From assembly GCA_019232665.1 (NCBI GenBank), contig JAFANN010000068.1:1-32952 (forward strand): DNA of 32,952 nucleotides, in the 5' to 3' direction. This document shows, in pieces, positions 2,918 to 6,403 of this stretch (the first letter of the stretch is position 1; each line of letters begins with the position of its first letter). The translations under genes were made by a program, and so were the position numbers. Below the pieces are notes generated by a model, which searched no databases, was not told the DNA's origin, and saw nothing but the letters and a program-made list of their open reading frames with translations. Source of the DNA: Caulobacteraceae bacterium. Lineage in GTDB: Bacteria > Pseudomonadota > Alphaproteobacteria > Caulobacterales > Caulobacteraceae.

Positions 2918-4954
2918 GTGCTCGATCCCAATTCCACTCAAGCCGCAGCCGCCCGTCTTGCGGCGCAATCGGACGCCGTCGCCCGTCTGGCGAAGGACAG
3001 CGGCGCGTTCGCCGCCACAGTCGCCGCCTTCGAGGCCGAGGATGGCGAGGCCGTCCGTTGGATCCTCGACCGTCTCGAGCTCTTCCCATTCTGCGAGCTC
3101 ATTTGCGAGTGGCTGCGCATCAAGCTCTGCGTTCTGCGCTGCATCGAGATCTGCGGGCCGCCGCGGATCGAGGATGAGCTCCCAAGTCTTCCCGACTTCG
3201 CGCGCGAACTCGCCCAGCTCGGCCGCCACGACACGCTGCTGCGCGACCTCGTCGATGCGGTGGATTGCGGCGCCTCGGAGGCCTACCACGCCCTGTTGCG
3301 GGAGCATGGCCTCGAGCGGTTCTGTCACCTCTTCTGCCGGTGGATCTGCTCGGTCCGTTACGAGCGGATATGTCGGCTGGTCTGCATCCCGATCCCCGAG
3401 CCGCTGATCGACCCGGCGGCGGCCGCGGTCGCCGAGGCGCGGAGTCTGGAGAAGCTCGTCTCCGGCGACACCCTCGCGCGCCTCTCCGAGGCCGTCATCG
3501 GCCTCCTGTGCGAGGAGGCCCAGAGCGCGATCAACGACGGCGGCTTCCAGGGAGAGTGCGAGATCATCTGCCGCCTCATCTGCGTCTGGCGGATTACCTG
3601 GGTGTGCCGCGAGCTCTGCCGTCGCCCGCCCATTATCCTGACAGGGGTGCTGGCGACCGAGGAGGCGCGGGAATTCGCCCTCGCCTCCCGCGCCCTCTCC
3701 GCCCAGCCGCGCGTGGCCGCATCCCTGGTCGACGCCGTCGCCCGCAATGACGCCCAGGCCTACGGCGCCTTGATCGCGCGCATCGGCTTCGAGCCGTACT
3801 GCTGGCAGGTCTGCAGCTGGGTCGGCTCGCTGATCTGCTTCGAATTCTGCCTGTGCGTCTGCCCCAATCCGCAGGTGCAGCCGCCCGAGTGGACCAACAT
3901 CGGCTACATCCTTGTCGATTCCGACATCGACGCCACAGGCAAGACGACCACCTCACGCAGTGGCGCGGGGGGTGTCGGCTACGCCTTCTTCGACAGCCTG
4001 CAGCTGACCGGCTTCATTTCGGCGACATCCAACATCGTCCCCGGCGCGCCGATGATGTACCGGTTCCTGTATTCCCTGAATGGCGGACCGACGACGCCGG
4101 TCGTCGACGGCATGCTGGATCACAACCCATTCCAGGTGGCGGGCCTGCCCACGCAGCTCTGGCCGGAAAAGGATGGCGCGGGCAACGCCACCTCGACCAG
4201 CACCCTGACGCCGGGCGGCGCGGTGTTCGTGTCCAACAGCGGAGACGTGCCGTTTCCGGTCACCACCCCGCCGGCGGTCCGTCCGCCGCCCGCGCCGGGC
4301 AACCCGTGGTATCCGCCGCAGGTCTTTGTCTGGCCGGACGCCGCGACCGGCTGGACGCTGGTGTTCCAGAACACTTATGCGGGATTCTACACCGGCTTCA
4401 TGGACCTCGAGAGCGAGACCATTGTCGCCGCCCAGAACCCGAACGTCGGCTACCCTCTCGCGGATATCGGCAGCGCGATCCCAGCGAGCGCCACCCTCAA
4501 CGGGTCCAACGTGGTGCTGACGTTCGAGGCCAGCCGCACCACCACCCCGTCACCGCCCGACTACCAGCAGGCGCCCGTGCTCATTCGCGTGAACAACAAC
4601 ACCGAGGTCAACGAGCTGTATTTCCAGCAGTTCTTCGGCCCGGATGGCTGCTGCACGCCGATCTCTTCGGAACTGAACGTCCTCTTCGACGCGGATCACG
4701 AGGAGATGGGATCGTTTTCGATCGTCGTCACGAGCTGCGCCCTGTCTTCGCCGATCACCCTGTGGCCTGCCTCACCGATTCCGACGGTCACGACGGGCCC
4801 GCGCGGAGGCTTTGGATCGATCCCGTTGGATACCAGCACATTCTCGGCATGTTCCTATACAGTCACCCAGACGACGGTCCCGCTTCTCACCACCGGCATC
4901 GTCAACCGCTCGGCGTGGCCCAATTCGCTCACCTTCTGCATCTGCGGGCCCTGA
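2918..4954 (+). CDS. Four-module cysteine-lattice protein of unknown function (678 aa)
   Basis: No named family recognised. Residues 1-320 consist of four repeats with a 77-81 residue period. Each has a helical, Ala/Leu-rich lead-in (compare DAVDCGASEAYHALL and DAVARNDAQAYGALI) followed by a Cys/Trp/Arg-rich segment and a Pro-containing turn. Module cysteines: 59,63,71,75,79; 136,140,144,152,156; 214,218,222,230,234; 295,299,307,311,313,315. Relative to the first Cys of each module, all but C313 fall at offsets 0,4,8,12,16,20, with either 8 or 12 vacant. Two extra cysteines (117, 198) lie in lead-ins. Residues about 322-678 look beta-rich (Thr/Ser/Gly/Pro) and end in CICGP. There is no signal peptide or clear TM helix. 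The start is GTG with GAGTGAGG seven bases upstream. It is followed 18 bases later by a DUF1360-like gene. Regular CxxxC spacing suggests cysteines lining helices, perhaps metal- or disulfide-related; that is inference. Confidence 0.88.
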   Translation: MLDPNSTQAAAARLAAQSDAVARLAKDSGAFAATVAAFEAEDGEAVRWILDRLELFPFCELICEWLRIKLCVLRCIEICGPPRIEDELPSLPDFARELAQLGRHDTLLRDLVDAVDCGASEAYHALLREHGLERFCHLFCRWICSVRYERICRLVCIPIPEPLIDPAAAAVAEARSLEKLVSGDTLARLSEAVIGLLCEEAQSAINDGGFQGECEIICRLICVWRITWVCRELCRRPPIILTGVLATEEAREFALASRALSAQPRVAASLVDAVARNDAQAYGALIARIGFEPYCWQVCSWVGSLICFEFCLCVCPNPQVQPPEWTNIGYILVDSDIDATGKTTTSRSGAGGVGYAFFDSLQLTGFISATSNIVPGAPMMYRFLYSLNGGPTTPVVDGMLDHNPFQVAGLPTQLWPEKDGAGNATSTSTLTPGGAVFVSNSGDVPFPVTTPPAVRPPPAPGNPWYPPQVFVWPDAATGWTLVFQNTYAGFYTGFMDLESETIVAAQNPNVGYPLADIGSAIPASATLNGSNVVLTFEASRTTTPSPPDYQQAPVLIRVNNNTEVNELYFQQFFGPDGCCTPISSELNVLFDADHEEMGSFSIVVTSCALSSPITLWPASPIPTVTTGPRGGFGSIPLDTSTFSACSYTVTQTTVPLLTTGIVNRSAWPNSLTFCICGP

Positions 4955-4972: not shown

Positions 4973-5380
4973 ATGGCGCAGCCCGGCGAATTCGCTATCC
5001 GGTTCATCCTGGCGGCGCTGGCGATCTGGCGAGTGACCCATCTCCTCGCGGCGGAAGACGGCCCAGGCGCGGTCATCTTCCGCCTTCGGCGGACACTCGG
5101 CTCGGGCTGGCTCGGCGACCTTGCGGACTGCTTCAACTGCCTGAGCCTGTTCGTGGCCGCCCCGGCTGCGTTCTTCGTATCGCAGCAGCCGCTCGTCTGG
5201 GTCGTCGCATGGCTGGCCCTCTCGGGCGCCGCCTGTCTGCTCGAAAGACTGGGCCAGGCTTCCCCGCTTGTGGACCCGTTCGCCCAACCCCTGGAAGGAG
5301 AGGCCGATGTGCTGCGGTTCGAGACGCGCGACGCTCCGTCCGCCCCCGATGCGGACCCACGCCCCGCGCGCCGCCGCTGA
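4973..5380 (+). CDS. DUF1360-like small membrane protein (135 aa)
   Basis: Resembles the DUF1360 family (PF07098), known mainly as small bacterial membrane proteins of unknown function. Visible hallmarks: IWRVTHLLAAEDGPG near residues 22-36, an LRRTLG element, and a CFNCLSLFVAAP motif (CxxC) around residues 56-67 that opens a hydrophobic stretch. Two to three TM segments are likely (about 8-24, 60-75, 80-98). The C-terminal 40 residues are polar and Pro/Arg-rich. The start ATG at 4973 follows GGGAGAGG. The gene lies 18 bases behind the Cys-lattice protein, and its last 74 bases overlap the next gene in another frame, so the three are almost certainly one operon. A role as membrane partner of the Cys-rich protein is inferred from position only. 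Confidence 0.8.
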   Translation: MAQPGEFAIRFILAALAIWRVTHLLAAEDGPGAVIFRLRRTLGSGWLGDLADCFNCLSLFVAAPAAFFVSQQPLVWVVAWLALSGAACLLERLGQASPLVDPFAQPLEGEADVLRFETRDAPSAPDADPRPARRR

Positions 5381-5582
5381 TCCGCCTCCCGGGCCAGCCC
5401 CAGACCCGGCCGCGCCTCTCGTGGGCCTGGCGACCCTGCGCTACCTGCAGTCGGCGCCGATCAGGGTCGTCGGGCCGGCGACAGGCCGCGCCTACGCCTT
5501 CTCCGGTTCGAGGCCCATCCAGATGGTGGATCCCCGCGACGCCGAGATCCTCGGTCGCGCTGCACTCTTCCAGCGGGGCTGA
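5307..5582 (+). CDS. Small MCCG-start protein, hypothetical (91 aa)
   Basis: Unrecognised function. It starts MCCGSRRATLR, then a Pro/Ala-rich linker, then a compact folded-looking tail: ATLRYLQSAPIRVVGPATGR, then AYAFSG, VDPRDAEIL and a final phenylalanine stretch. I recall small bacterial proteins with an MCCG head and a GPxTGRxYxFSG core, but cannot name a family. The ATG at 5307 has a strong GAAGGAG site, and the first 74 bases overlap the end of the DUF1360-like gene in a different frame, arguing for translational coupling. The adjacent Cys2-Cys3 pair is a conspicuous link to the Cys-rich first gene of the cassette. A frame start further upstream (5268) is less likely because it lacks such a ribosome site. 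Confidence 0.7.
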   Translation: MCCGSRRATLRPPPMRTHAPRAAADPPPGPAPDPAAPLVGLATLRYLQSAPIRVVGPATGRAYAFSGSRPIQMVDPRDAEILGRAALFQRG

Positions 5583-5996: not shown

Positions 5997-6403
5997 CCAA
6001 CTCCACGACCGAGAAACTGTCGGTGGTCGTCGAGCGGGAGGTTCCTTTCCCGCCCGAGAAGATCTGGCGGGCGCTCACCCAGCCGCACCTGCTCGAGGGG
6101 TGGCTGATGAAGAACGACTTCAGCCCCGTTGTGGGTCACCGTTTCAGGTTCAGCGCAGACTGGGGCTCGGTCGATTGCCAGGTCCTTGCGGTCGAACCGA
6201 ACAGGACCTTGTCCTACACCTGGGGCGCGTTCGGGTTGGGGAGCGTAGTGACCTGGACCCTCTCGCCGACGAGCACGGGCACGCATCTGCGGATGGAGCA
6301 GGCCGGCTTCCCGGCGGACATGCCACAGGCCTACCACGGGGCCCGAGCCGGCTGGCCGCGTTTCCTGGACAGCCTCGAGAAGGTCTTGGCCAAGCTAGAT
6401 TGA
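5993..6403 (+). CDS. SRPBCC/AHSA1-domain protein (136 aa)
   Basis: START-like (helix-grip) fold of the AHSA1 group, a small soluble protein that binds hydrophobic ligands in a cavity. Family markers: VVEREVPFPPEKIWRALT near the start, LLEGWLMKNDF, the VGHRFRF strand, VDCQVLAVEPNRTLSYTW, and a C-terminal helix (GWPRFLDSLEKVLAKL). The length is normal for the family. The ATGA overlap with arsR is the standard arrangement; in such pairs the regulator usually controls the SRPBCC gene. The ligand is unknown. Confidence 0.9.
   Translation: MTNSTTEKLSVVVEREVPFPPEKIWRALTQPHLLEGWLMKNDFSPVVGHRFRFSADWGSVDCQVLAVEPNRTLSYTWGAFGLGSVVTWTLSPTSTGTHLRMEQAGFPADMPQAYHGARAGWPRFLDSLEKVLAKLD

Follow-up and report, generated by a model that had tools for sequence, protein, structure and literature searches.

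A protein family with a four-residue cysteine grid and proposed antiparallel two-cysteine rungs, encoded beside a DUF1360-like gene in a Caulobacteraceae bacterium

The closest described systems to the protein considered here are the copper storage proteins (Csps) and the alpha-hairpinins. In the Csps, four helices form a bundle whose core is lined with Cys. Csp1 and Csp3 possess many helix cysteines and CXXXC motifs, and Csp3, with 18-19 Cys per chain, is cytosolic (PMC5171941, PMC5519932); in the latter, a CXXXC motif or a pair of neighbouring helices supplies the two thiolates that bind Cu(I) (PMC5171941). The alpha-hairpinins, peptides from plants, have two or three rungs and a short loop; their antiparallel helices, with the pattern C-X3-C-Xn-C-X3-C or, in the six-Cys form, C-X3-C-X3-C...C-X3-C-X3-C, are joined by disulfides (PMC11591084).

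The stretch of DNA analyzed here (the window, 32,952 nucleotides of contig JAFANN010000068.1, assembly GCA_019232665.1) encodes a protein with 20 grid cysteines, close in number to those of a Csp3 chain, hereafter the Cys-ladder protein. Many helix cysteines and CXXXC motifs are common to it and the Csps, whereas the strict C(x3C)5 grid, the tandem modules, extra helices, a C-terminal domain and a gene cassette are features of the ladder protein; its cysteine losses imply helix pairs and not one core, and its Cu binding is only proposed. With the alpha-hairpinins it shares four-residue Cys spacing and, as predicted, antiparallel helices. It differs from them in having six positions per helix, in partner helices about 57 residues apart, in its bacterial origin and in a size of 460-820 aa within the family; the alpha-hairpinin definition (a short peptide, CX3C-Xn-CX3C, n of 4-20) is matched in its CX3C element but not in the length (678 aa in the window) or separation (about 57 residues). 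Sequence similarity to Csp or DUF326-type proteins was found neither for the window protein and 13 relatives against Pfam nor for the family profiles against the PDB. By analogy, the protein may work like an extended CX3C helix pair of the alpha-hairpinin kind or like a Csp-type thiolate site, being in sequence a member of neither. Our preferred reading, with a probability of about 0.42, is that it forms an antiparallel Cys ladder which resides in the cytosol, holds metal and works with the partners from its cassette. The features of the gene are as follows.

2918..4954, + strand: Cys-ladder protein, 678 aa, GTG start; four modules (about residues 1-320) and a C-terminal domain (about 325-678)
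3092..3154, + strand: module 1 Cys helix, residues 59-79; Cys at grid positions 0, 4, 12, 16, 20; position 8 is Arg67
3266..3268, + strand: C117, off-grid, between modules; retained in 5/5 members of the window's clade
3323..3385, + strand: module 2 Cys helix, residues 136-156; Cys at 0, 4, 8, 16, 20; position 12 is Tyr148
3509..3511, + strand: C198, off-grid, in module 3; found in exactly those proteins that have Cys at module 4 position 18 (C313)
3557..3619, + strand: module 3 Cys helix, residues 214-234; Cys at 0, 4, 8, 16, 20; position 12 is Ile226
3800..3862, + strand: module 4 Cys helix, residues 295-315; Cys at 0, 4, 12, 16, 20 and C313 at 18; position 8 is Gly303
3890..4951, + strand: C-terminal domain with conserved Cys, homologous in four- and two-module relatives

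The reading frame shows a gene-like codon bias, with GC of 0.62, 0.52 and 0.87 at the three codon positions. Module cysteines are located at residues 59, 63, 71, 75, 79 / 136, 140, 144, 152, 156 / 214, 218, 222, 230, 234 / 295, 299, 307, 311, 313, 315, and each module is closed by a grid segment of 21 residues in which Cys occurs only at positions 0, 4, 8, 12, 16 and 20, C313 excepted. The preliminary description of this DNA had listed the offsets per module, a 77-81 residue period and one empty position, 8 or 12, in each module: the offsets are exact in the translation, the measured module spacing is 77, 78 and 81 residues, and the empty positions are borne out. Its statement that all cysteines but C313 lie on multiples of four holds for 20 of the 23 Cys of residues 1-320, since C117 and C198, between the grids, are also off it. 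Within modules, 40 of 45 Cys-Cys separations are multiples of 4, versus about 11 expected, and on these statistics low complexity or chance was rejected as the origin of the grid, the chance of inner Cys falling on it with module ends fixed being about 1e-9.

The ladder protein gave no Pfam match at E up to 1, no NCBIfam match and no PHROG, nor was a common Pfam match found for the 13 relatives; judged by its sequence, it is a member of a hitherto undescribed family. The first close relative, from an Acidobacteriaceae MAG, is 48% identical over 431 residues and is truncated by the contig end. The family comprises nine four-module proteins (about 640-820 aa; that of locus L002 is incomplete) and six two-module proteins (about 460-510 aa), which align to modules 3-4 of the former; the module common to both consists of three short helices and one long Cys helix. 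Conservation of the grid among homologues had been set beforehand as a test, and the spacing proved exact, insertion-free down to about 25-30% identity, with no relatives losing it freely. In 33 helices of 11 proteins, Cys occupies positions 0, 4, 8, 12, 16 and 20 in 32, 31, 29, 28, 31 and 32 cases, respectively, and the two-module relatives have it at 12/12 positions (6+6). As relatives thus hold Cys at nearly all six positions, the full ancestral Cys helix was most simply C(x3C)5, the empty 8 or 12 of the window being a loss from it. The period of four extends beyond the cysteines: in the same helices I, V, L or F precedes Cys at positions 3, 7, 19 and mostly 15, and Trp stands at position 6 in 23/33. 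The C-terminal domains of four- and two-module proteins are also related (hhalign probability 94.9, E 4.5e-8); in the proteins of L054 and L070 this domain is interrupted by an inserted beta-like stretch (TTLASAINSAQTTITV...TWTVTRGQDGTTA).

The arrangement of the helices is suggested by the way in which lattice cysteines were lost. Among the nine four-module proteins, 12/12 losses are paired and none is unpaired, position p of module 1 (or 3) being lost with position 20-p of module 2 (or 4). M1-8 and M2-12 (module and grid position) are lost together in seven proteins, M1-16 and M2-4 in two (L021 and L059), M1-0 and M2-20 in one (L059), and M3-12 and M4-8 in two (the window and L070). Five alternative schemes, with parallel register or other module pairings, leave 16-24 unpaired losses each. 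A column-level permutation, in which positions were shuffled within modules and carriers kept, gave p = 0.0014, about 0.008 when corrected for six schemes; the pairing had been spotted in the data before testing, so this value is only a guide. The losses represent at least four events on the tree, a safe count because the tree leaves a shared window/L070 event possible, and the permutation therefore rests on few events. The residue pairs at the lost positions (Val with Ala or Phe, Ala with Ala, Ile with Gly, Arg with Thr) are as expected for contacting positions.

Such a small number of independent events, four or five, also leaves room for the reading in which the pairing is coincidental and the grid represents a thiol-redox or protein-binding surface, or a modified peptide segment. 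We consider this unlikely: all events fit one scheme, and the off-grid Cys pairs agree with it. C198 and the Cys at M4-18 are jointly present in four proteins and jointly missing in five, including that of L070, a member of the window's clade, while L058 and L071 gained a module-2 helix-B Cys and M2-11 together. The paired losses thus imply, at the level of sequence, that the helices pair up antiparallel, with two cysteines per rung, instead of forming a free four-helix core of the Csp type, and an architecture of this kind is probable. The helix pair (1+2, 3+4) looks like the structural unit, because the losses pair 1-2 and 3-4 and because two-module relatives exist. For a family devoid of a known structure, paired Cys loss provides a residue-level contact map and makes the earlier proposal testable rung by rung.

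In the ladder so proposed, the 21-residue Cys helices of modules 1+2 and 3+4 would pack antiparallel and in register, p opposite 20-p, forming up to six two-cysteine rungs per pair, of which the window would retain five. The candidate rungs are 59-156, 63-152, 71-144, 75-140 and 79-136 in pair 1+2, and 214-315, 218-311, 222-307, 230-299 and 234-295 in pair 3+4.

A two-sequence AlphaFold2 prediction of residues 1-320 (pLDDT 81.8, pTM 0.82; confident in 1/5 models) placed each grid inside one helix of 23-24 residues (56-79, 133-156, 211-234 and 292-314) and predicted three further short helices per module. With modules 1-2 alone the helix positions were the same, the second grid helix being broken (pLDDT 50.6). 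The preliminary description had envisaged helices with a thiol stripe, packed as one four-helix bundle around a Cys-lined core. Its helices are recovered in this prediction, while the straight stripe is not: on a straight alpha helix, Cys at every fourth residue drift by 40 degrees per step, 200 degrees in total, and therefore form a winding band. The single core is not favoured either. Four Cys helices, the CXXXC motifs and the lack of a visible signal would suit a Csp-like store with all four helices in one bundle, but loss covariation is confined to modules 1-2 and 3-4, two-module relatives with only two such helices would have to dimerize, each module has three short helices in excess, and neither a Pfam family nor a Csp among the PDB sequence matches was retrieved; a store of this design appears improbable, more so than a coincidental pairing. 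Foldseek searches with residues 1-320 revealed no known fold in the PDB or BFVD, and no VIA-align Z exceeded 3.0. The PDB sequence search with family profiles gave no convincing relative; the matches of the module profile were de novo designed helical proteins and were taken as an effect of composition. A reading of each module's three short helices as Nif11-leader-like found no Pfam support and was dropped.

The filling of the rungs is less certain than their arrangement. In a rigid two-helix model, which ignores helix bending and real side chains, ideal straight antiparallel helices bring six rungs to Cbeta-Cbeta distances of 6.7-7.8 A at an interaxial distance of 7.6 A; the best fit of all six to 4.0 A leaves 5.4-8.2 A, too long for six disulfides, and free supercoil fits which reached disulfide distance for all rungs had an unrealistic pitch. 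According to this model, a bridging metal would fit the rung geometry better than six disulfides would. We propose that the protein stays in the reducing cytosol, inspection by eye of the N-termini of relatives having shown no export signal, and that its rungs would serve as two-coordinate thiolate sites, resembling the cross-helix and CXXXC sites of the Csps, for soft metal ions, of which Cu(I) is the likeliest. Metal as the filling is a tentative assignment, made by analogy; no metal genes were found to recur across the compared loci. If the rungs hold metal, the protein would be a thiolate store whose building principle differs from that of the Csps and of metallothioneins. To our knowledge, little is known of metal handling in the phylum of the carriers. 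At L054 (4147-8445), the ladder gene is closely preceded, on the same strand, by an RND efflux pump gene (PF00873) and its apparent partner.

The same antiparallel pairs could instead carry disulfide rungs stapling a rigid scaffold, and this reading, possible but somewhat doubtful, predicts strictly paired loss with no orphan grid Cys, a fit at least as good as that of metal. Alpha-hairpinins show that antiparallel helices with C-X3-C spacing can be joined by disulfides in two or three rungs (PMC11591084). A disulfide ladder would require export by an unseen route, no signal peptide having been seen by eye, or an oxidizing partner, for which the CxxC-bearing DUF1360-like protein encoded downstream, with invariant Cys 53, 56 and 88, is a candidate. 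Straight alpha helices, however, cannot bring all six four-residue-spaced rungs to disulfide distance, and the number of Cys in residues 1-320 is odd in the window's clade. If filled in this way, the ladder would be the longest regular helix staple known to us. With either filling, the protein could tentatively represent a new architecture unlike any known family: a tape of up to six two-cysteine rungs, single or tandem, that is a linear metal-thiolate (or disulfide) wire, which in some lineages is the N-terminal part of a large protein in a DUF1360/MCCG cassette.

In the preferred, metal-holding reading the ladder protein would work with two proteins encoded in the same cassette:

4973..5380, + strand: DUF1360-like protein, 135 aa, WRVTHLL...DCFNCLSLF, third conserved Cys at 88
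5307..5582, + strand: small MCCG protein, 91 aa, ...GPATGRAYAF...VDPRDA, overlapping the end of the DUF1360 gene

The order of ladder gene, directly adjoining DUF1360-like gene and small MCCG gene is found in the window, L052, L054 and L070, i.e., in 4/4 members of the window's clade with downstream DNA (the L002 contig ends before it); the small protein of L054 is short and has no TGRxYxF end. The second gene is a member of, or close to, DUF1360 (PF07098)/phrog_781, a family with no assigned function: against the gathering threshold of 21 bits, the window copy (16.6) and that of L052 (20.7) score below and the L201 copy (31.4) above, and profile A6, to which the window copy belongs, also finds the L201 copy. 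This likeness concerns the partner gene, not the ladder protein. Its hydrophobic segments suggest that the DUF1360-like protein is a membrane protein. At six examined loci of the other subfamily the DUF1360/MCCG pair was not found, and PADLOC anti-phage models matched neither the three cassette proteins nor L055.

Two congeners of the window's bacterium, which have no ladder, carry at other sites a cassette in the same order, in which a gene for a protein of 750 or 749 aa is followed by a DUF1360 gene and then by one of MCCG or MACC type. As its large protein differs there, the cassette taken as a whole does not necessarily concern metal. In one congener, the MCCG protein is homologous to that of the window (profile, E 6.8e-8), and the large protein weakly matches the two-module C-terminal domain (probability 50, E 1.6e-4) but not the four-module one; no C-domain match was detectable in the large protein of the other congener, L201. 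It is mainly the gene order which suggests that a common carrier may bear different N-terminal parts, the ladder being one of them. Under the metal and the disulfide reading alike, DUF1360, a family without a function, gains a conserved partner. The congener large protein of L200 (7944-10196) has WWWWW runs with nearby CC at residues about 150-190. DUF1360-like genes also occur in IMG/VR (L193, 5775-6303; L194, about 6000-6200). That of L193, a viral contig, adjoins a gene for a small protein starting MPCSSC and has long structural-looking genes nearby; homology of this small protein to MCCG proteins was not demonstrable.

Module-profile searches found the ladder gene in 3/396 genomes of a sample of the acidobacterial phylum, in 11/397 genomes of one acidobacterial order and, as clear cases, in 3 of 162 genomes of another. 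The samples overlap, and together contain 14 carriers, outside which the gene was found only in the window's genome. No copy was found in 118 further genomes of the window's family, nor did samples of its class and phylum contain other carriers, single weak partial matches aside; absences are provisional, as the large-sample searches scored only part of the first-look candidates. Weak partial matches at L008, L026 and L069 (E 3.9e-6 to 8e-4; two with an internal stop) were left out of the counts. No relatives were found in phages, plasmids or viral contigs. An IMG/VR scan for the C(x3C)5 DNA pattern gave at least 120 stretches, which were rejected as relatives, nearly all among the matches listed being short tandem repeats. 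Because carriers are otherwise acidobacterial and the samples of its family, class and phylum otherwise have no such gene, the ladder gene of the window was most likely acquired horizontally. A binning error is not evident, since 11 congeners have counterparts of a neighbouring gene at 78-83% identity, which places the contig in the genus.

Several neighbours of the ladder gene deserve mention. Genes for an ECF-type sigma factor and a TPR-CHAT protease adjoin it at L002 (1171-5637), L052 (10353-14770) and L021 (10737-15427); the ladder may have some link with regulation or proteolysis. Past the CHAT gene, the L002 contig encodes a set of large proteins (L072, 9416-19998), one with DUF6603 and two with no Pfam family. 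One two-module ladder gene lies 4 kb from a gene for a contractile tail sheath (L060, 6016-7086; PF04984, PF17482).
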